Positions 39,424-56,290 of a stretch of 64,000 bases of DNA are shown piece by piece. Position 1 is the stretch's first letter. Each line of letters starts with the position of its first letter. The notes under the pieces are model-generated. The model had not been told where the DNA came from, ran no database searches, and saw only the letters and a list, made by a program, of their open reading frames with translations. A program made the position numbers and the translations under genes. Source of the stretch: Bacteroidota bacterium (lineage in GTDB: Bacteria > Bacteroidota > Ignavibacteria > Ignavibacteriales > Ignavibacteriaceae); NCBI GenBank assembly GCA_020161395.1, contig JAIUOE010000003.1, positions 1 through 64,000 on the forward strand. The letters run 5' to 3'.

Positions 39424-40073
39424 TTGCCTGCCTCCGCTTTTAACCGGTTATATTCAGCGTCAAAATAGATTTTAAACCGGTTCCAGTCCCATGCCGGCCC
39501 GATGTCATACTTATCTTTGCGAAAATGCGTGTGCGTCGTGATTCCAACGAGCTTTTCATTGTTCTCAACATAGTCCAGATTAGTGTTGATTATTGGCGGG
39601 ATCCCGAATGCCAAACAACGCTCAGCCGCCCATTTTCCCACATTCTCGTATTGAGCTTCGGTGAAAGTCGCCCAGTGAAAAACTCCTTTGAATGGAGTCT
39701 TAAAACTGACATACTCACCCTTGTATATATTCCCGTAGCAATCCACCATAACACCGTTTCTGTTCCAGAGTGGCCCGATGTTTTGAATCTCTATCCCAAT
39801 CGTTCGCATCTCATTAAAGAGAGTTGAACCCAAATGAAACGCCCAATACGCAGGTGCAAATAATTCCGCAATCACTCCGTCACGCCCGCAGGCATAGGTA
39901 GTTGCGACTTTTCCGGGTTGCTGATCGAAGTAGTTACCGGTTGCTATGGCATCTCCGTAACCCGCAGTAAAGTGAAATGTGAGAGCGTTTTTCTTTGTTA
40001 TCTGGTCAACATATTCACCATATTTTAAATATCTGCCGACTAACTTGTAAGCGATTCTTTTTAATAAATTCAT
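39420..40073 (-). CDS. N-acetylmuramoyl-L-alanine amidase (endolysin)
   Basis: This 217-residue protein is an Amidase_2/PGRP-type zinc amidase that cuts the bond between muramic acid and the stem peptide. The zinc and catalytic region is seen as LTFHFTAGYGD, WAFHLGST and GIEIQNIGPLW, and THTHFRKDKYDIGPAWDWNRF near the end with the last His and Asp. The start at 40073 is chosen because GGTGGAG lies seven bases upstream and the stop of the upstream gene lies just before it; the open frame to 40136 is spurious. No cell-wall-binding domain is attached. Confidence 0.88.
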   Translation of the reverse strand: MNLLKRIAYKLVGRYLKYGEYVDQITKKNALTFHFTAGYGDAIATGNYFDQQPGKVATTYACGRDGVIAELFAPAYWAFHLGSTLFNEMRTIGIEIQNIGPLWNRNGVMVDCYGNIYKGEYVSFKTPFKGVFHWATFTEAQYENVGKWAAERCLAFGIPPIINTNLDYVENNEKLVGITTHTHFRKDKYDIGPAWDWNRFKIYFDAEYNRLKAEAGK

Positions 40074-49229: not shown

Positions 49230-50352
49230 ATTGCACCACGAAATCTGTTATATCCTTGTTCGGCAGAGCTTTAATAGCTACCTGTTTGCCAAGCTCTGCG
49301 AAGCGTTTAATTAATTTTGCCTGTAACTTCTTACCCGGTTCATCCGAGTCGACCATTATAACAACCTCGAAACCGGTAAGTCTGTCAAGCTTTTCCAGAT
49401 TGACAGTGCCGGTACCCGGGACGCCGATACAGTTATAACCCATCTGTGCCATAACCATTGTATCGAATTCCCCTTCAACTATATAAAGCTTTTCTCCTTT
49501 ACCCATCGAAGCAACCACATCCCAGTTGTAGAATCTTCGCGGAGTATTCACGCCCAGACCGTCATCCCTTAGTCCTATGTACTTGCTTGCATCGGATGGT
49601 GCTTTCTCCTTTTCACCATCAACGCCGTAATACCTGCCACGAAGATAAACGATTTTACCCATGTGCAGGTAACTGATCATAATCCTGTGACGGAAGAAGA
49701 TTAGGTTTACTTTCTCATTAAACAACCCGCTTCTTATAAGCCGGTCTTTCCCAAATTTCTGTTTAAGGTACTCTGATACCCTCTTGTAATCTTTTATGAA
49801 GAAGCATTTGAACTGTTGCAGAGTTTCAGCACACAGTTTCCTTCTTTCATTCATGTAGAGCTTTGCATCGAGTTCCCATCCGATCTGCAGGCAGAAAGAG
49901 TAGAGAGCCTCAAACACCTCTTTGTTTTGCTCCATCCTGTGATGCTTCACCTGGTTAAGTGCATAGGTGCCGTCATCCGTCATACCAAAACGCTCGTAAT
50001 AGATTTCCTTTTCTTCATCGGAAAGAATTACATTCAAATCGAGCTCCATACGCTTTTTTAGCTGATTAGGAGGCAATTGGGGTGCAGGTGAATACTTTCC
50101 GCCAATCATGCTGAATAACTCTGCTATGCCCTGTTTCCGCTCTTTATTGTATAGCAAACAGTAAAGATCAATAACATCACCACCTTTGGAGGTGGAGAAG
50201 TCATAAAAACTGTCACTCTTCGGATAGATCTTGCAACTCGGCGTTTTCTCTTCACGACCGGGAGAAGAAATAAACCCGCCACGGTTTACAGGGACACCGC
50301 AGCGGGATAACAGTTCGAGGATACGCAAACTTGATTTTATCTGTTCAATCAC
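49222..50352 (-). CDS. DnaG-like primase with degenerate CHC2 and TOPRIM domains
   Basis: This 376-residue protein opens with a CHC2-like fold whose zinc ligands are changed (RCGVPVNRGGFISSPGREEKTPSCKIYP and FYDFSTSKGGDVIDLYC), then a linker and a TOPRIM domain with EGEFDTMVMAQMGYNCIG and IMVDSDEPGKKLQAKL, the conserved Glu and DxD. It makes RNA primers for phage replication. The start GTG 50352 is preferred, with AGGGG seven bases before; a longer open frame to 50409 is an artefact. It overlaps the small ORF at 50345-50446. Confidence 0.85.
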   Translation of the reverse strand: MIEQIKSSLRILELLSRCGVPVNRGGFISSPGREEKTPSCKIYPKSDSFYDFSTSKGGDVIDLYCLLYNKERKQGIAELFSMIGGKYSPAPQLPPNQLKKRMELDLNVILSDEEKEIYYERFGMTDDGTYALNQVKHHRMEQNKEVFEALYSFCLQIGWELDAKLYMNERRKLCAETLQQFKCFFIKDYKRVSEYLKQKFGKDRLIRSGLFNEKVNLIFFRHRIMISYLHMGKIVYLRGRYYGVDGEKEKAPSDASKYIGLRDDGLGVNTPRRFYNWDVVASMGKGEKLYIVEGEFDTMVMAQMGYNCIGVPGTGTVNLEKLDRLTGFEVVIMVDSDEPGKKLQAKLIKRFAELGKQVAIKALPNKDITDFVVQYG

Positions 50353-50446
50353 GGACAGACCCCTGATAAGAAACCACAAACACGATAAACAGAATAACAC
50401 AGGTAACAATTACCCCAAGAAGAAAACCGAGTATATATTCATTCAT
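50345..50446 (-). CDS. 33-residue membrane-type small ORF
   Basis: The frame encodes MNEYILGFLLGVIVTCVILF and a short tail, a single membrane span. GGAGA lies before the ATG. It overlaps the primase start by eight bases and the upstream 22-codon frame by four (ATGA), so it is likely translated as part of the early operon. Function unknown. Confidence 0.5.
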   Translation of the reverse strand: MNEYILGFLLGVIVTCVILFIVFVVSYQGSVRD

Positions 50447-50511
50447 TCGGCAATCTCCGCCATTTCGTAAACAAATTTATCTGTCCAGGGCGGAGTGCTC
50501 AATGTGCTCAT
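50443..50511 (-). CDS. 22-codon ORF, possible leader peptide
   Basis: The frame encodes MSTLSTPPWTDKFVYEMAEI and two more residues. GAGG precedes the ATG by three bases, closer than usual. Its TGA overlaps the next ATG (ATGA), so it may mainly couple translation. Low confidence as a real protein. Confidence 0.3.
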   Translation of the reverse strand: MSTLSTPPWTDKFVYEMAEIAE

Positions 50512-50525
50512 TAACCTCAAAGATA

Positions 50526-50666
50526 TCAAAGATCAGGATTATGTTTCCTGTCGTAAAGCTTTTGTTCGAGGATCCTGGTGTATTCATATGATGATGCCCC
50601 TTTAAGGAAGGCAAGCACCAGTCCGTTAAATACAAGCACCAAAGCGATTATCAAAAAAACTTCCAT
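50526..50666 (-). CDS. 46-residue membrane-type small ORF
   Basis: The frame encodes MEVFLIIALVLVFNGLVLAF followed by a charged tail: one span. AAGGA lies upstream, and the ATG follows the stop of the preceding gene by one base (TGAAATG), a coupled start. Function unknown. Confidence 0.55.
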   Translation of the reverse strand: MEVFLIIALVLVFNGLVLAFLKGASSYEYTRILEQKLYDRKHNPDL

Positions 50667-50667
50667 T

Positions 50668-50898
50668 TCAGTTGTTCCTTTCTTTTACAGGAAAAATATC
50701 TTCACATGAAGCTGTAAGAATGTCACCATCGAACGATTTAACAGAGTATGAGATACTCAGCTTGAAGTGATCCAGTGACATATTAACTCCAAGGATCTCA
50801 CCAAAGGTATATTTGTAGCAAATGAGATTCCCGTTGGTATCGGTGATTTTCTCTTTTACCTTCACCGGTTTGTGCAGGTCGTAAAATTCAATTCGCAT
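50668..50898 (-). CDS. Early phage protein, unknown
   Basis: This 76-residue beta-rich protein starts MRIEFYDLHKPVKVKEKITD. It is unrecognised. It overlaps the upstream gene by 11 bases and runs into a coupled small ORF downstream. Confidence 0.55.
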   Translation of the reverse strand: MRIEFYDLHKPVKVKEKITDTNGNLICYKYTFGEILGVNMSLDHFKLSISYSVKSFDGDILTASCEDIFPVKERNN

Positions 50899-51154
50899 TA
50901 CCCACCTCGTTTAACCAGGTGTCGCATACCCTTTTGATGGAAGAAAACGGATAGATACTTCCCTGAACAAACTGCGGATTGCTGCACTGGTTACCCGAGA
51001 GGAGCTTGTAGTCTCTGTCACCCGTTTCCCTGAAAATAAATGACTTCGAGGGCATCATGTGCAAATAGGGAGTATAAAAGAGGACCGTCAGATAATCCTT
51101 GGAAACTTCTATCCGGTAGTCAAACCTGAATGCTTTGTCAGAATTTCGTGTCAT
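50888..51154 (-). CDS. Early phage protein, unknown
   Basis: This 88-residue protein starts MTRNSDKAFRFDYRIEVSKDY, with beta-rich sequence and two Cys near the end. It is unrecognised. It overlaps the HTH-like gene upstream by 17 bases. Confidence 0.55.
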   Translation of the reverse strand: MTRNSDKAFRFDYRIEVSKDYLTVLFYTPYLHMMPSKSFIFRETGDRDYKLLSGNQCSNPQFVQGSIYPFSSIKRVCDTWLNEVGNAN

Positions 51155-51530
51155 TTACCAAATTCTCCTCTAATTTGTTCAGCTTCTCTTTTATGTCGCG
51201 GATCTCTTTAAGGATGTGCCGCTTCTCCCTTTCATCAATCACGGAATCTGATTCGGCATTGATGATATCACCCTGCAATTTCACGATGTTTTCATTGATC
51301 CGGTTACATTTCCCCACAAGATTTAGACGGGGAGCCGGCTGATCAACATCCACACCCATCTCGTTGAGAGCTTTCATAATGTCAGTATAGACATTGTGAC
51401 TTATCTTTGTCCCGTGATTCAGGATGTAGTAAAGCTTTTGCGGATACATCCCGTGCATATTCCGGCACAGATCTGTCGGCGATATGCCGTTCTCCCACAA
51501 TATGTTTCTGATCTCTTCAAGTGCTGTCAT
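51138..51530 (-). CDS. HTH-like regulator with coiled-coil end
   Basis: This 130-residue protein starts with a helix-turn-helix-like stretch (ISPTDLCRNMHGMYPQKLYYIL) of about 65 residues and ends in a charged coiled-coil (about 80-125) suited to dimerisation. It may regulate early genes or act like a Cox/CII protein. The HTH assignment is by pattern only. Confidence 0.5.
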   Translation of the reverse strand: MTALEEIRNILWENGISPTDLCRNMHGMYPQKLYYILNHGTKISHNVYTDIMKALNEMGVDVDQPAPRLNLVGKCNRINENIVKLQGDIINAESDSVIDEREKRHILKEIRDIKEKLNKLEENLVNDTKF

Positions 51531-51531
51531 G

Positions 51532-51807
51532 TTAAATATCCAGATTGTAATAGTTTTCTCCCTTTATCCACTTGTTAAGCAGGGAGGGATAACTGTAGTT
51601 TTTGCCGCCTTTTTTGAAGACAGGAAGTTCACCGGTATGAATTTTATTGTACACGGTTTGCTTCTTCATCTTCAGGTACTTCGCCATGCCTTCAATATCG
51701 AGGGGTTCCTCGGATTCAAGTTTCTCCAGCAGGAGATCCTTCACTTCAAGCATTAAGGATAGAAGGGTCTTGTTATCGACCCAGCGATCTTCAAGTTTCT
51801 TTTTCAT
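51532..51807 (-). CDS. HTH excisionase-like protein
   Basis: This 91-residue protein contains an excisionase/MerR-type winged HTH: LDIEGMAKYLKMKKQTVYNK, followed by GELPVFKKGGKNYSYPSLLNKWI. This pattern fits phage Xis proteins or Bacteroidetes HTH-17 regulators. The ATG at 51807 lies one base after the upstream stop; a GTG at 51816 is the alternative. It could direct excision by the integrase at 56565-57581. Confidence 0.7.
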   Translation of the reverse strand: MKKKLEDRWVDNKTLLSLMLEVKDLLLEKLESEEPLDIEGMAKYLKMKKQTVYNKIHTGELPVFKKGGKNYSYPSLLNKWIKGENYYNLDI

Positions 51808-51808
51808 G

Positions 51809-52225
51809 TTATGCACCCGGTTTAAAATAAAAAACCGGCAGCTCCGTCGAGGTCTTTACCGGGTTCTCGCTTGTTTGGAGACCGGTTGCCTCGCGGCTAA
51901 ACTGCCGGCGATTTGGTGTGATTTTTATTTCATTAAGTGTCGATATGATTCTCGTTATCAGATCATCCGACTGTAATTTATCGCTTGTGAACTCGCATGT
52001 CATTCCGTTTGGGAATCTCAACCGCAGATGGTAAACTCCGCGCCTGATCAGGATCCTGAGTATCTTTATCCCGTTCCTCTTCAAAATCGAAAACAAGGAA
52101 CTTTCATCACTCACCAAAATAGTTTCAGCTACGGGAATATATTTTAGATTAAGTGTTTTTTGATGGTTATGGTATCTGCAAATCATCACTAAATTCTTTC
52201 TTTCAAAATTCGGGTGGTGGGACAA
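51809..52225 (-). CDS. Early phage protein, unknown
   Basis: This 138-residue basic protein starts MSHHPNFERKNLVMICRYHN and has a stretch ISILKRNGIKILRILIRRGVYHLRLRF-type pattern without known motif. It reads into the HTH gene with a one-base gap. Its start lies about 80 bases from the first plus-strand leader. Confidence 0.5.
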   Translation of the reverse strand: MSHHPNFERKNLVMICRYHNHQKTLNLKYIPVAETILVSDESSLFSILKRNGIKILRILIRRGVYHLRLRFPNGMTCEFTSDKLQSDDLITRIISTLNEIKITPNRRQFSREATGLQTSENPVKTSTELPVFYFKPGA

Positions 52226-52303
52226 TTAAGAGTGCTAACAACTTAATAATCCACTCTCACCACCCATTATTTAAGGGGCATTAACTCCCCATTGAACTCT
52301 GTA

Positions 52304-52371
52304 TAACTTCCCCGGGATTTGTATTTTTGTGATGCACAATTTTCACAAAACAAACCCCGGAGGAAAAAATG
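52304..52371 (+). promoter_or_regulatory. Dyad leader, copy 1
   Basis: A 68-base unit ending at the ATG of 52369-52584. Arms 52312-52332 and 52343-52360 pair as CCGGG, TTTGT and TTTGTGA blocks with one mismatch and a three-base bulge. The right arm ends in the GG of the GGAGG ribosome site. TATTTTTG (52322-52329) in the left arm is an exact TAnnTTTG -7 box. It is identical to copy 2 at 63 of 68 positions. Confidence 0.75.
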
Positions 52372-52584
52372 AACGATGAACAATTTCAGGAACTTAAAGA
52401 CCTGCAACAGGAACTGATCGATAAAGTGTCTGATACTAACACGATCCTTATGAAAATGATCGAATATCAGATTTGTTCTTTGAATATCGACCCAAAATTA
52501 TACTTTGAGATTTCTAAAGATTTCAAAAAGTTTTCTTCTGATATTGGATACACCCCCGATGCCGGACTAATAGAAGGTATTTAA
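52369..52584 (+). CDS. Small acidic helical protein behind dyad leader 1
   Basis: This 71-residue protein (MNDEQFQELKDLQQELIDKV) is helical, with one Cys, and is not recognised. GGAGG precedes the ATG. It is on the strand opposite to the surrounding early operon, and its stop overlaps the stop of the convergent gene by four bases, so the two transcripts would form an antisense overlap. Confidence 0.6.
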   Translation: MNDEQFQELKDLQQELIDKVSDTNTILMKMIEYQICSLNIDPKLYFEISKDFKKFSSDIGYTPDAGLIEGI

Positions 52585-52808
52585 CTTCCCCAACTCAGGG
52601 TGATTGTATCTTCTTCAATTTTAATTCCACGGCGACCATCCAATGGTAAAAGCATTTTACCTTTTAACATGAATAGTCTGCCTTCAATTTTGACTACTTT
52701 TACACCCAGTTCGGGGACATCAACGATATCATACGATATCGATTTCCCCGGCTGGGCATCTGTCTCCACCAGTTCAGGTAAAGATTCATAAATGTTTTCA
52801 TCTTCCAT
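52581..52808 (-). CDS. Small acidic phage protein, unknown
   Basis: This 75-residue protein starts MEDENIYESLPELVETDAQP and is beta-rich afterwards (GVKVVKIEGRLFMLKGKMLL). It is not recognised. It is convergent with 52369-52584. Confidence 0.5.
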   Translation of the reverse strand: MEDENIYESLPELVETDAQPGKSISYDIVDVPELGVKVVKIEGRLFMLKGKMLLPLDGRRGIKIEEDTITLSWGS

Positions 52809-52830
52809 GACGCTACTTCCTTTATGTTTT

Positions 52831-52898
52831 TAACTTCCCCGGGATTTGTATCTTTGTGATAGCTAATTTTCACAAAACAAACCCCGGAGGAAAAAATG
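52831..52898 (+). promoter_or_regulatory. Dyad leader, copy 2
   Basis: The second copy of the 68-base unit, ending at the ATG of 52896-53324. The -7 box reads TATCTTTG (52849-52856), again TAnnTTTG. The differences from copy 1 fall in the bulge and loop, while the arms are unchanged. Confidence 0.75.
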
Positions 52899-53324
52899 GA
52901 TATTCTACCAGAACAGAAAGTTGTTAAAAGTATCTGGTCTTTTATTTGGTGGTTATTTCAAAACCGTAAAATGCTTTATAGCTTCACAAACCTTCTCACT
53001 AATGTTCATGAACGCATGCTAAAAATTGAACTACTTCAGAATGACCCGGGATATCATTGCACCAATTGTAGAACTGAAACAAGAGTGCTTTTAGCTACTC
53101 GTTACATCAAGGACCAATTAACAGGTATTTATTACTGTACTGTTTGTGAACGAGTATCTGAACGACCAGCTCTTGAAAAAGTCATACTGCAAAACGCAGA
53201 GACTATGGAAATTATCAATAAATTAAAAGAACGAGGTTGTAATTTTGAAGACACCGGCTCCAAAAAAGTATCTATAAACAGGCCTAACGATCAGCGTTGG
53301 GATTCAAACCCTTTGAATAGATAG
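52896..53324 (+). CDS. Zinc-ribbon-like protein behind dyad leader 2
   Basis: This 142-residue protein has an N-terminal aromatic-rich helix (VKSIWSFIWWLFQNRKMLYS) that may touch the membrane, a CxxC pair (HCTNCRTE) and a second one (YYCTVCERVS), fitting a zinc ribbon, and a charged tail. It is not recognised. It is on the plus strand, with a 41-base overlap at its 3' end with the convergent 53284-53538. Confidence 0.6.
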   Translation: MDILPEQKVVKSIWSFIWWLFQNRKMLYSFTNLLTNVHERMLKIELLQNDPGYHCTNCRTETRVLLATRYIKDQLTGIYYCTVCERVSERPALEKVILQNAETMEIINKLKERGCNFEDTGSKKVSINRPNDQRWDSNPLNR

Positions 53325-53538
53325 CTACGATCTGATCCATCATGGTGTCTTTAGACTTATCTAATATCAGTTTTTCAATATTGCCGAGTTTATTATAGAG
53401 TGCTACATATTTTTCATGAAGTTCAACGATTTCTCGAACTCCATCAAAAAAAAGATATTTAATAGATAATATTTTTATTACGATACTTACAAATACATAT
53501 ATGGTAATTAATACAGCTAAATATGACTCTCCCATCAC
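53284..53538 (-). CDS. Membrane-anchored small phage protein
   Basis: This 84-residue protein starts MMGESYLAVLITIYVFVSIV, one span, followed by a helical cytosolic part. It is not recognised. It overlaps the RHH-like gene upstream by four bases. Confidence 0.55.
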   Translation of the reverse strand: MMGESYLAVLITIYVFVSIVIKILSIKYLFFDGVREIVELHEKYVALYNKLGNIEKLILDKSKDTMMDQIVAIYSKGLNPNADR

Positions 53539-53753
53539 GCTACCTCCTCTTGTTCCACTTCCCCTTTTAACACGCTTGTTTCTACTCCAAGCTGACTCAA
53601 TCCTGCCTCGAGGAAATGGGTGATCAAGTCCTTTACCTTTAACCGTCGCTTCGCTGCTTCCACAGAAACCAAATAATGCAACTCCCTGCTGATCGCCACC
53701 TGGATACGGCTGTCCTTTGTCAGTGACGATGATTTTGTTATTTCTGTCTGCAT
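53535..53753 (-). CDS. Ribbon-helix-helix-like protein, first early gene
   Basis: This 72-residue protein (start MQTEITKSSSLTKDSRIQVA) has RIQVAISRELHYLVSVEAAKR, which fits a ribbon-helix-helix strand and helix. The open frame continues upstream to 53903, but that would cross the operator region and overlap the repressor, so the ATG at 53753 is chosen. It is the first gene of the minus-strand lytic transcript and is likely a Cro-type or other early regulator. Confidence 0.6.
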   Translation of the reverse strand: MQTEITKSSSLTKDSRIQVAISRELHYLVSVEAAKRRLKVKDLITHFLEAGLSQLGVETSVLKGEVEQEEVA

Positions 53754-53789
53754 TCTTATATTGTCTCTTTGTTTGTTGATTTGTATTAC

Positions 53790-53817
53790 ATAATAAATGT
53801 CAAGAATCTGGTTGCAA
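53790..53817 (-). promoter_or_regulatory. Candidate early (lytic) promoter
   Basis: On the minus strand TTGCAA (53812-53817) and TATTAT (53790-53795) are 16 bases apart. Operator O1 (53801-53811) lies in the spacer, so a bound repressor would block it. Confidence 0.5.
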
Positions 53818-53853
53818 TAATAAACAAGATTCTTGAGAAAAACAAGAACTTTG
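53801..53853. promoter_or_regulatory. Three-site repressor operator
   Basis: Three copies of an 11-base near-palindrome CAAGAWTCTTG: O1 CAAGAATCTGG (53801-53811), O2 CAAGATTCTTG (53825-53835, perfect) and O3 CAAGAACTTTG (53843-53853). Centres are 24 and 18 bases apart, all between the repressor and the first lytic gene. This recalls lambda OR1-3. Confidence 0.75.
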
Positions 53854-53860
53854 TTAAAAT
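53833..53860 (+). promoter_or_regulatory. Candidate repressor promoter
   Basis: TTGAGA (53833-53838), 16 bases, TAAAAT (53855-53860). O3 lies in the spacer, allowing autorepression. The predicted start is about 53867 and the ATG is at 53872, so the mRNA would be almost leaderless; no ribosome site is seen. Confidence 0.5.
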
Positions 53861-53871
53861 AAATTAAATTA

Positions 53872-54546
53872 ATGTCAAATATTGACCATTTAAATGAACG
53901 CATAAAAAGAATCAGAGAAATATTGGGTGTGAATCAAGAAGAATTTGCATCCATAACTGGAATATCAAGAAGTTCCATCGGCAATTATGAAACAAATGTC
54001 AGCAAGCCGAAATATCCTGATCTTATAAAAATTGCCAAGATAGGCAATGTCACTCTTGACTGGTTGCTTACAGGCGAGGAGAGCAGTTTTACACCACCGG
54101 TAACCGATTTGAAGACCTTAAAAGGGAGTGATGCAAAGCCGGCACATGCAGTGCTCTACCCGCTGATCGACAAGGTAACGGCGGGAGATTTTTCGGCGAA
54201 TGCTCACCAGGAGAACATAGTGGAGTATTACCCCGTCAACTTTGTGAGGAAAAACTGTTTTCTCGTGGAAGTTGAGGGAGACAGCATGACCTGCGACGAC
54301 CCCGATCAGAGCATTCAGGCAGGAGACTTGCTTTTAGTTGACCCCGTGGAGACCGTCACCCCGGGAGATCTTGTTGTGGTGAAGCTTACTTCAACCCGCC
54401 ACATGGTAAAACAGTTCTTCATCTCAAAAGACGGTATCGAACTTAGATCACTTAACCCTTCGCACCCTTCCATCTTCATCACCCCCGATCAGCTTGAATA
54501 CATCTTTCGGGTGGTTTACCATCAACCCAGGGGACGGAGGAAATAA
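53872..54546 (+). CDS. S24 (LexA/CI-type) phage repressor
   Basis: This 224-residue protein has an N-terminal HTH_3 domain (LGVNQEEFASITGISRSSIG and NYETNVSKP) and a C-terminal S24 peptidase domain. The self-cleavage pair is Ala104-Gly105 (VTAGDF), Ser138 is in VEGDSMT and Lys180 in RHMVKQF, so RecA-stimulated self-cleavage after DNA damage is likely. It should bind the operators at 53801-53853, keep the lytic genes off and control its own promoter. It is divergent from the early operon. Confidence 0.93.
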   Translation: MSNIDHLNERIKRIREILGVNQEEFASITGISRSSIGNYETNVSKPKYPDLIKIAKIGNVTLDWLLTGEESSFTPPVTDLKTLKGSDAKPAHAVLYPLIDKVTAGDFSANAHQENIVEYYPVNFVRKNCFLVEVEGDSMTCDDPDQSIQAGDLLLVDPVETVTPGDLVVVKLTSTRHMVKQFFISKDGIELRSLNPSHPSIFITPDQLEYIFRVVYHQPRGRRK

Positions 54547-54568
54547 AAAACCAAACAGGAGAGTAAAA

Positions 54569-54898
54569 ATGAATAAGAAACCAAGACTTGAAGACCAGGA
54601 TAAACCCCTTTTATTGGAAACTCCAGAAACCATCATTGACACACTGGCAACACTCAAGTATGTCGTAGTATTTTTGTTCATCATAGCAGTATCTGTCCCC
54701 TTCATGTTAAACCGCTCGGGCGGCGTCGAGTTATTCCCGATTGTGATACTGATTATTGCAGGAGCATTTTTAGTCCTGTCTATCGCAGCCGTAGAAAAGC
54801 TCTTCATATTCCTTTTCCAGATCCGTGAAGCACTGTACCACCAAACCTTTGATAATTATGGTGACGAAGACGAGGAGAAGACCAAGACCGGGGAGTGA
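54569..54898 (+). CDS. Two-span membrane protein downstream of the repressor
   Basis: This 109-residue protein starts MNKKPRLEDQDKPLLLETPE and has two hydrophobic spans (YVVVFLFIIAVSVPFML and LFPIVILIIAGAFLVLSIAA) with an acidic tail. AGGAG precedes the ATG at good spacing; a frame reaching 54494 overlaps the repressor and is rejected. It follows the repressor by 22 bases and is likely co-transcribed in the lysogen. Unknown function. Confidence 0.7.
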   Translation: MNKKPRLEDQDKPLLLETPETIIDTLATLKYVVVFLFIIAVSVPFMLNRSGGVELFPIVILIIAGAFLVLSIAAVEKLFIFLFQIREALYHQTFDNYGDEDEEKTKTGE

Positions 54899-54900
54899 AG

Positions 54901-54984
54901 ATGAATAAGAAATCAAGACTTAAAGAGCAGGATATGCCACTCTTACTTAAAATCAACTACATATTTACCGGAGTGAAAATTTGA
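54901..54984 (+). pseudogene. Truncated second copy of the preceding gene's start
   Basis: The 27-residue frame starts MNKKSRLKEQDMPLLL, close to MNKKPRLEDQDKPLLL of 54569-54898, then diverges and stops. The stop TGA overlaps the ATG of the next gene by one base. It could be a remnant of a tandem duplication or a short leader peptide that couples translation to the next gene. Confidence 0.55.
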
Positions 54985-55853
54985 TGGTGCCGAATAAGAT
55001 AGTTTATAAATTTAATTATTTCCTACTTCAAACAAATGATGAAGACAATATTCTGGATTTGTTCAAATCGACCAATCTGCCAAACAGTAAAACCGAAACA
55101 GGATTTGCATCGCTTCTGGAGATAAATCACACTGAAAAGTATATCACCGGCATTATGGGACTGATTTATGATCAAAATTTACCCGGGAAATATAATCTCA
55201 CAAATCGTCAGCGAGGTCCTCTTGACTTAAATACGGATGAGGGGGTTGTATATGGATCAGCGTTTTTATATGACATTGAAAGGAATGTATTTGTTTACCA
55301 AGGTACGAGACCAGGCGTTTCACCACTGGGATGCATTGGTTACCTCGCAGAACACAACAAAGTCACTGTTGATCCCATTGTGATTTTAGATGTTAATCTT
55401 ATGCAAAAAAATTTAGCAGGAAAAGACATCTCAAACATGGAGATCAAATTATCCAATTCAGGGACACACCTTTTTTCAAAAGATATGTCAGCTAAAGAAC
55501 TTTCTAAAGCTGCTGAAAAGTTCGGTGCAGCCACATTGGATGTTAAGTTTTCTGCAGATAGAGGAAAATCGCTCACCAGAAAAAGTGTAATTAAATTTAT
55601 CAAAGAAGTGATGAGTGATCGCGACACTTATAAAAATCAAATAAAGTCATTGCATCTAACCTATAAAGATGGTGAAGGTAAATCACAATTAGTTGATCTT
55701 ATTTCACATAAGATGACTTTTGACCTTGACTATTTGCGTGGGAGAAATAATATTAGTACCTTATTACGAGAAGATTTTTTAAAACAAGTCATCGACAAAT
55801 ATGAGGAGAACTTACCACGACTAATTCAAAATCTAAACCTACAAAAAACCTGA
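54984..55853 (+). CDS. Soluble protein of unknown function, possible lysogenic cargo
   Basis: This 289-residue protein (start MVPNKIVYKFNYFLL) has the block GVVYGSAFLYDIERNVFVYQ and a helical end (RDTYKNQIKSLHLTY, FLKQVIDKYEENL). The pattern reminds me of DUF6731-type proteins, but I am not certain. No catalytic motif is seen. It is a plus-strand gene between the repressor and integrase, a usual place for cargo. The stop lies beside an A6 run; see the next entry. The ATG overlaps the upstream stop by one base. Confidence 0.6.
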   Translation: MVPNKIVYKFNYFLLQTNDEDNILDLFKSTNLPNSKTETGFASLLEINHTEKYITGIMGLIYDQNLPGKYNLTNRQRGPLDLNTDEGVVYGSAFLYDIERNVFVYQGTRPGVSPLGCIGYLAEHNKVTVDPIVILDVNLMQKNLAGKDISNMEIKLSNSGTHLFSKDMSAKELSKAAEKFGAATLDVKFSADRGKSLTRKSVIKFIKEVMSDRDTYKNQIKSLHLTYKDGEGKSQLVDLISHKMTFDLDYLRGRNNISTLLREDFLKQVIDKYEENLPRLIQNLNLQKT

Positions 55854-55885
55854 TAATTGAGAGGTATTTACCCTATCTTTTAACA

Positions 55886-56290
55886 TTGGTTGGTTTAATT
55901 CTTGTACTTTCATTCCAATTCGATTTTGGAAAAACTTTCAATACAAAAGTACTGGATCAACTTCTCAATACGAGTGCAATCTTTTCAGGTTTCCTGCTGA
56001 CACTCTACGGAATGATTAGCAGTTTGAACACTTTACGAGTTGCAAGACTTGAACTGTTTAAGTCTATCAAAAAAGATTTGAAAAAATATCTGATAGAGGC
56101 GGTAGTTTGGAACATTAGCCTGCATCTGATAATATTAGTGTACTATATTTTACAAATAAAAGATGCTTCATTAAACTGGACGATGCACCTATTTATTTTC
56201 AGTCTTACCGTTCTTGCATTTTCAACAACTATAAGATTTGCTAAAATATTTATTCATCTTGCCGGTGGTAAAGAGATCGATGAAAAATAA
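55886..56290 (+). CDS. Multi-span membrane protein, start uncertain
   Basis: This 134-residue frame begins at TTG 55886 and holds about four hydrophobic spans (LVGLILVLSFQFDF, ILLHLIILVYYILQ-type and LFIFSLTVLAFSTTI). No ATG exists in the frame, which is open from 55805. The natural N-terminus therefore may lie upstream (LIIERYLPYLLTLVG precedes the TTG codon in frame), or it may be the C-terminal part of the preceding gene, joined by -1 slippage or by an extra A in the A6 run at 55843-55848. Function unknown. Confidence 0.5.
   Translation: MVGLILVLSFQFDFGKTFNTKVLDQLLNTSAIFSGFLLTLYGMISSLNTLRVARLELFKSIKKDLKKYLIEAVVWNISLHLIILVYYILQIKDASLNWTMHLFIFSLTVLAFSTTIRFAKIFIHLAGGKEIDEK

Follow-up and report, generated by a model that had tools for sequence, protein, structure and literature searches.

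What is the role of a 68-nt leader that stands, nearly unchanged, in front of two different genes of one prophage? The leaders lie in the 64,000-nucleotide stretch of contig JAIUOE010000003.1 that was analyzed here (the window), within a prophage that spans ~26.8 to 57.7 kb (ends estimated) and carries terminase, capsid, primase, CI-like repressor, and integrase genes. Its minus-strand early genes point away from the repressor, which starts at 53872 on the plus strand; within this early region lie two small plus-strand genes, each preceded by one copy of the 68-nt unit (Table 1). The interval of ~2 kb from gene C (53535), the first early gene, to the CII-like gene (51530) holds gene B, gene 2, gene A, gene 1, ORF X, and an HTH gene. 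Between gene C and the repressor lies a 14-bp inverted repeat, a probable CI-type operator.

Table 1. The two leader units, the genes that they precede, and the surrounding regulatory genes (window coordinates)
Feature	Position	Strand	Basis
Unit 1, putative promoter-hairpin leader through ATG of gene 1	52304..52371	+	sequence, repeat search, fold
Unit 1 left arm (columns 5-29): -7 box and RBS complement	52308..52332	+	predicted structure
Unit 1 -7 box TATTTTTG, TAHHTTTG type	52322..52329	+	box scan, published consensus
Unit 1 predicted transcription start, in loop 52333-52342	52334	+	box at -12..-5, prediction
Unit 1 right arm (columns 40-62), GGAGG at 52359-52363	52343..52365	+	fold
Unit 2, second leader copy through ATG of gene 2	52831..52898	+	sequence, repeat search, fold
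Unit 2 -7 box TATCTTTG; predicted start 52861, loop 52860-52869	52849..52856	+	
Unit 2 right arm, GGAGG at 52886-52890	52870..52892	+	fold
Gene 1, 71 aa, no family	52369..52584	+	helical in single-sequence AF2 model (pLDDT 86.7)
Gene A, 75 aa, convergent with gene 1; AGGAAGTAGCGTC before start	52581..52808	-	
Gene 2, 142 aa, hydrophobic N-terminal part, two CxxC pairs, no family	52896..53324	+	
Gene B, 83 aa, convergent with gene 2; AGGAGGTAGCGTG before start	53284..53535	-	
Gene C, 72 aa, Arc-like (weak, E 0.016, phrog_582), first gene of minus-strand early region	53535..53753	-	
CI-like repressor (HTH + S24 peptidase)	53872..54546	+	family matches
CII-like regulator	51138..51530	-	family matches
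14-bp inverted repeat TCAAGAATCT...AAGATTCTTGA, between gene C and repressor	53800..53836	.	repeat search

Other structured or accessory features flank the cassettes. A DUF6731 protein is encoded 3′ of the repressor (54981-55853, +) with small unknown plus-strand ORFs around it; together these are possible further lysogeny genes. On the minus strand, a hairpin at 51824-51909 (-41.4 kcal/mol, z -4.73), followed by TTTTTTATTTT, lies in the 3′ portion of ORF X, immediately ahead of the HTH_17 gene, and looks like an early-operon terminator or attenuator. A second long dyad, directly 5′ of ORF X (52213-52265; -22.9 kcal/mol, z -3.18, minus strand), differs in sequence from the units. The minus-strand stretch of ORF X as a whole (51815-52295; frame read from 52186) has a more stable fold than its shuffles (z -4.74), and ORF X has no convincing family match; the stretch may be a structured RNA instead of, or in addition to, a gene.

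The two units lie 527 nt apart and, as a sequence-only reading of this DNA had reported, are identical at 63 of 68 positions (93%; sequence comparison and repeat search). The RNA of each is predicted to fold at -24.9 kcal/mol (z -5.12 and -5.68; 0 of 200 shuffles as stable) into a stem of 21 pairs, in blocks split by a 3-nt bulge and single-base bulges, closed by a 10-nt loop. The right arm terminates in GGAGG plus AA. The ribosome site had been described as lying partly inside this arm; it lies wholly inside, with all four G of GGAGG paired. The exact TAnnTTTG box, present in both copies as described, occupies columns 19-26 of the left arm, and its A-H-H forms the 3-nt bulge. Since the 21 pairs need this AHH bulge, the pairing is natural for RNA and odd for a two-fold DNA site. 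When searched across the window with up to three mismatches, each arm pattern is found twice, against 0.01 (left arm) and 0.00 (right arm) expected. Unit 2 adjoins gene A, just upstream of it.

The five differences between the copies fall, as had been noted, in the bulge and the loop: at column 22, the second N of the box within the 3-nt bulge, and at columns 31, 32, 33, and 34 of the 10-nt loop, all of them positions that neither the box nor the ribosome-site pairing constrains. The unchanged arms had been described as what selection on structure would produce. The identity of the arms stands, but the argument is weaker than it appears: avoidance of the arms has a P of 0.001 (within the hairpin) or 0.006 (over the 68 columns) if there were five independent changes, and of 0.065 if the four adjacent loop changes were one event (two events in total). 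The sparing of the arms is only suggestive of selection.

To place the box in its genomic context we extended the window by 400 kb of its contig, to 464 kb with 369 predicted genes, counted boxes for the genes with at least 100 nt of free upstream space (n = 152), and took expectations from Markov shuffles. Of the 152 genes, 25 (gene 2 among them) have TAnnTTTG in the 100 nt before their start, against 11.65 (sd 3.2) expected; the form TATnTTTG, which both units have, occurs 20 times against 5.6 expected. TTGACA and TATAAT are not enriched upstream (9 vs. 9.0 and 17 vs. 16.5). The box peaks 60-30 nt before the gene start, and both units carry it at -47 from the ATG, so that a host-type box stands at the usual distance in each. 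The literature gives TAHHTTTG as the consensus of the -7 box (PMC6847099) and its position as -12 to -5 (PMC9723704). With the box at -12 to -5, transcription is predicted to start at column 31, in the 10-nt loop (52334 and 52861), leaving a 35-nt UTR; these loop starts are predictions from the published -7 geometry. A TTG 18-22 nt before the box is found upstream of the genome's own genes eight times against 1.5 expected and is absent in both units; the -33 motif is described as much less evident in general (PMC6847099). The repeat itself extends from about -30 to the ATG and holds no promoter upstream of the hairpin, and the 60 nt that precede each unit contain no exact TAnnTTTG box.

The position of the predicted start matters for the ribosome site. 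Opening the segment from GGAGG to AUG is calculated to cost 10.3-11.0 kcal/mol (unit 1) and 11.7-12.7 kcal/mol (unit 2) in an RNA started at or upstream of the unit, vs. 2.0-2.1 and 2.9-3.1 kcal/mol, respectively, in an RNA started in the loop; in the loop-start RNA the computed SD is unpaired just 36-51% of the time. Across 370 leaders of the same genome, removal of the left arm brings a mean gain of 0.3 (sd 1.7); unit 1 reaches 8.2 and unit 2 reaches 9.6, which places genes 1 and 2 at ranks 3 and 2 in a ranking whose 34-nt cut was taken from the unit's own geometry. SD-like sites are uncommon in this genome (63 of the 370 leaders). Rank 1 (10.8) belongs to the leader of an IS110-family transposase (L063:13225-14280; own contig C3:257225-258283), the left arm of which carries AAATTTTG, one base off the promoter box.

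The reading that we favor, and hold to be slightly more probable than not, is that each unit is a self-shielding leader of an accessory gene that runs opposite to the early region. The left arm would then be a dual code, serving both as -7 promoter element and as complement of the ribosome site. Polymerase at the unit's own promoter would start in the loop and produce an RNA without the left arm, in which the RBS is fairly open; an RNA started upstream would contain both arms, fold, and hide GGAGG. Any read-through RNA would thus be silenced in the cell, and translation of genes 1 and 2 would be tied to their own promoters. For unit 2 the proposed source of read-through is transcription from gene 1 across gene A; this named source covers unit 2 alone, and no plus-strand source is indicated for unit 1. 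Points against the reading are also the partial exposure of the SD in loop-start RNA, the missing TTG before both boxes, the scarcity of SD-like sites in the genome, and the derivation of the ranking cut from the unit itself. The cassettes would occupy an accessory stretch between the Arc-like and HTH/CII-like genes, the leader having been copied from one cassette to the other, in whichever direction. The sequence-only reading had posed an either/or, in which an upstream start would mean an RNA stem and a loop start a DNA element; that choice omits the self-shielding leader, for which both starts matter, the unit's own leaving the site open and read-through locking it.

How readily such an arrangement arises by chance depends on the measure; the two copies count as one event. 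Hairpins that enclose the box, carry an SD in their 3′ arm, and are followed by an ATG number five in the 464 kb at any energy, against one to seven per shuffle (24 shuffles). At ≤ -20 kcal/mol such hairpins comprise the two units, and one occurs in 7 of 24 shuffles of the 464 kb; at ≤ -24.6 kcal/mol the figure is 2 of 24 shuffles. By stability alone, the hairpin architecture is unremarkable. The scan gain of the units is 9.2 and 10.8, and 2 of 60 shuffles of the 464 kb have any site of at least 8 (maximum 9.3); when judged by their proposed function, the read-through gain, the units are rarer by chance.

We then looked for the unit elsewhere. The genome itself (4.07 Mb) contains two copies, both in this prophage. 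A search of other phages for the 68-base unit in front of unrelated genes, which the earlier reading had suggested, returned no sequence copy in phages, and three exact patterns found no copy of the unit in viral contigs. The single match in genome contigs (L045, a Muribaculum MAG; one exact pattern) was attributed to chance, its hairpin being different. Among the matches listed for 79 other genomes of the family there were short pieces only (best E 4.0e-4). A covariance model of the units (R1), run on 390 other genomes of the class with filters that lose weak matches, gave matches in six of them (21.7-29.4 bits). Four of these (L049, L050, L051, and L053) were rejected, having no box and either no terminal start codon or an ORF of at most 19 aa, as was L052, which has the inner stem only and lacks a plus-strand ORF of 40 aa within ~100 nt. 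An own-genome match (L047, 25.1 bits) was set aside too: a 117-aa ORF follows its stem and GGAGG, but the TAnnTTTG box is missing. A second model that included the look-alike described below (R2) gave no additional match at E ≤ 1 across 763 kb. In Rfam, no match over 50000-56000 exceeded the gathering score, the best over the units reaching 22.2 bits vs. 63, on the minus strand.

These searches divide the earlier proposal of a moving regulatory cassette. Promoter, dyad, and RBS do form one unit common to two unrelated genes; movement between phages is unsupported, no sequence copy having been found in the genomes, phages, and contigs searched. Where a MITE-like element would have several copies in unrelated places, the unit has two in one prophage, and its mobility rests on one duplication. 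As the unit sequence was found nowhere else, it offers no compensatory changes within a family. A viral contig (L033, IMGVR_UViG_3300003770_000021) has a primase end that is 100% identical over 52 residues and is probably a metagenomic copy of this phage or of a close relative; because its sequence starts within the primase, the cassette region is not covered.

The best R1 match (L048; G277:C1:136206-136260; 29.4 bits) lies in another family of the class. Its E value is 2.5e-4 for one genome, with ~0.1 such matches expected by chance over 391 genomes. Its left arm carries TATTTTTG with the same three-base AHH bulge, its right arm has every base of GGAG paired, and an ATG follows; the fold is predicted at -17.7 kcal/mol (z -5.03), and opening costs 13.7 in the long RNA vs. 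2.1 in the own-start RNA. With a scan gain of 12.3 it is the largest of six such sites in its 214-kb contig (next 5.8), and 0 of 40 shuffles of that contig reach a gain of 11, in a shuffle test done after the discovery. Of 68 aligned columns, it has 34 in common with both units. The likeness may reflect descent or convergence, with neither favored, or may be due to chance. The leader starts 35 nt after the stop of a co-directional gene for a TPR protein, a position at which read-through is plausible and a guard against it would make sense.

Behind the look-alike is a 216-aa ORF, unrelated to genes 1 and 2 and assigned to no family, that heads a row of minus-strand ORFs (L084:4489-10261, G277:C1). 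One ORF of this row has partial-length matches to virion-protein families (E 9.5e-5), and another, as we take it, resembles the end of a tail tape measure; the row is possibly a phage-derived particle operon. A search for relatives of this gene and leader gave none with the leader and no phage match, the taxonomic family of its host genome being represented by that one genome. One viral contig (L097) has a 27-residue stretch in common with the protein, located in a long tail-type ORF without such a leader, and was discarded. The design of RNA plus promoter may recur, though the letters do not. The case for self-shielding leaders is slightly strengthened, because the look-alike holds up and because the gain-based shuffles are stricter.

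The genes behind the two leaders were compared next to their convergent partners. As previously noted, the proteins of genes 1 and 2 are unrelated (no similarity), and both genes converge on a minus-strand ORF with which they overlap, by 4 nt (52581-52584) and 41 nt (53284-53324), respectively. Genes A and B have no significant similarity to one another. Codon-usage scoring backs genes 1, A, and B as genes and does not back gene 2, which is unlike host genes; the scoring has little power, as gene C fails too. Gene 1 has no homologs in the 390 other genomes of the class; for gene 2 there are weak matches at E ≤ 0.1 in 9 of 145 other relatives, mostly in interrupted frames. One gene 2 match in the 390 genomes (L078) was judged to be chance; by eye it is a lipoprotein-like ORF beside a sigma-54-type regulator. 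Viral contigs, Pfam, PHROGs, PADLOC, and solved structures yielded nothing convincing for either gene, a fold search with gene 1 gave nothing at E ≤ 0.001, and the structure model of gene 2 (pLDDT 53.2) is too poor for use.

The starts of genes A and B are both preceded by AGGARGTAGCGTSATG, which the genome contains nowhere else, even when two mismatches are allowed; control patterns gave six and five matches. A third TAACTTCCCC, at 52582, was considered as a recombination mark and dropped, 0.47 such 10-mer matches being expected in the local 2.5 kb. The two modules are thus alike at their edges and unlike in their cores. Exchange of cores between fixed ends would leave such edges and is one possible history among others. 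A broader proposal, which we regard as speculative and rather unlikely in full, is that mobile-element genes in the group that uses TAnnTTTG recurrently employ a leader with promoter and anti-RBS in the same letters (AHH bulged, TTTG paired), so that any gene behind it would be deaf to read-through; here the leader would be portable, in two tandem modules (leader, plus-strand gene, convergent minus-strand gene, and shared minus-strand RBS patch) with cores swapped between fixed ends.

A related prophage in a genome of the same genus (G076) provides a comparison. Its repressor is 47% identical and its CII-like protein 25% identical (E 7e-9), and its Arc-like and CII-like genes lie ~20 nt apart, vs. 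the ~2 kb with both cassettes here. The Arc-like link on which this comparison of spacing depends is weak (E 0.026; both proteins match phrog_582 at E 0.016), the HTH proteins of the two prophages do not align, and their HTH and CII-like genes come in reverse order. Neither the covariance model nor the hairpin scan detected such a leader in the G076 prophage. We infer that the cassettes are accessory to the present prophage. A prophage of G070 (L040) was rejected as a further comparison, since its protein at the CII position has no match to ours, though it matches that of G076 (E 1e-6). At the DNA level, a 625-bp patch is 86.7% identical between the window (39450-40072) and L083 (8167-8789), near the G076 prophage repressor, and there are just two further short DNA matches between this prophage and the G076 region; the patch is a mosaic exchange.

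Other readings of the hairpin were weighed against the same observations. The main rival, itself unlikely, treats the unit as a DNA operator, at which a phage or host regulator would repress both genes together by binding the inner dyad TTTGTGA-N10-TCACAAA, which spans the -7 box and the start. This dyad is perfect, centered near the predicted start, and kept in both copies despite the loop changes, and several small DNA-binding proteins are encoded nearby. The core TTGTGA-N8-12-TCACAA, however, occurs at just one further place in the 4.07 Mb, without a clear promoter, and the reversed control also occurs once; moreover, the dyad is unlike the inverted repeat at the repressor (53800-53836), and an operator leaves unexplained the outer arms, which pair only across the 3-nt bulge and end on GGAGG. 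An RNA switch or thermometer, in which upstream-started transcripts contain the full hairpin and the RBS is freed by a ligand, by a protein, or by temperature, would account for the complete hiding of the RBS in such RNA. We consider it improbable: the repeat brings no upstream promoter and there is no exact box within 60 nt upstream, the box in the left arm is left unexplained, and matches to Rfam are all below threshold.

Two readings assign the hairpin to other transcripts. It folds on the minus strand as well, and unit 2 is just upstream of gene A, as would suit a stabilizer or processing site between cistrons of the early mRNA with an incidental plus-strand box; we give this still less credence than the switch, as it explains neither why the unit ends exactly at two plus-strand ATGs nor the geometry of box and RBS. 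Least probable in our view are pRE-like establishment promoters, activated by the CII-like protein and yielding an RNA that is antisense to genes A, B, and C and reaches the repressor. Plus-strand promoters within the early region that point at the repressor, the presence of a CII-like gene, and a terminator scan without a plus-strand site between 53324 and 53872 are in line with this idea, but that scan performed no better than shuffles (10 vs. 9.2), the units resemble mRNA leaders in ending with GGAGG and the ATG of small ORFs, and the G076 prophage, with its related repressor and CII-like gene, yielded no such unit to the covariance model or the hairpin scan.

Set beside known systems, self-shielding leaders have partial counterparts of several kinds. 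Temperate phages have CI/CII operators, which are dyads near the immunity region; the units share that location and differ in a sequence unlike the repressor repeat, in their long bulged arms, and in the RBS inside. Prophage morons are accessory genes with their own promoter. The cassettes resemble them in the candidate promoter box of their own, the orientation against the neighbors, the atypical codon usage of gene 2, and their being extra relative to G076, where they are absent from the corresponding place (as far as the weak Arc-like link defines it); they differ in that no terminator was found behind gene 1 or gene 2 in a low-power scan. Fold-back inhibition in IS10/Tn10 protects the transposase from read-through. 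In ISPpu9, of the IS110/IS492 family, the 5′-UTR structure likely includes the RBS, and weakening it raised translation (PMC8450116). Common to these IS leaders and the units is a 5′-UTR structure that covers an RBS, in the former that of a transposase, and the rank-1 leader of this genome is itself of the IS110 family; unlike the units, IS leaders guard transposases and ISPpu9 works with small RNAs, while the cassette genes match no transposase family.

The closest design is known from phage T4, contrary to the earlier statement that no named system is like it. T4 genes e, soc, 49, and I-TevI have helices that hide the RBS, and e and I-TevI have the promoter placement that is predicted here (PMC3014915 and PMC2988022). 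For e, upstream RNA gives ~100-fold less lysozyme, whereas RNA from late promoters close to the RBS is translated well, its 5′ portion being absent (PMC3014915); I-TevI behaves likewise, with similar arrangements in I-TevII, I-TevIII, segB, and Aeh1 mobE (PMC2988022). The structure of T4 e is reported to be kept in related phages. Among the listed titles and opening lines of abstracts on RBS-hiding hairpins and read-through in phages and prophages, no such leader is named for the present group. In silico, the units share with e and I-TevI an SD held in a stable helix that forms only on upstream-started RNA; from the predicted loop start, the unit's own RNA would lack the 5′ strand. The T4 leaders serve early/late timing in a lytic phage and use T4 late promoters; the units would use a host-type sigma box, lie in a prophage, precede two unrelated genes, and form a copied 68-nt module. 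If the favored reading is correct, a compact part would tie translation to the RNA start site. This would account for accessory genes that escape chance expression although they face a busy early operon or follow a host gene; the design makes a clear prediction, that transcripts start in the loop at 52334 and 52861. A timing device known from T4 would then extend to temperate phages with a different sigma factor, as a copied and small reusable part.
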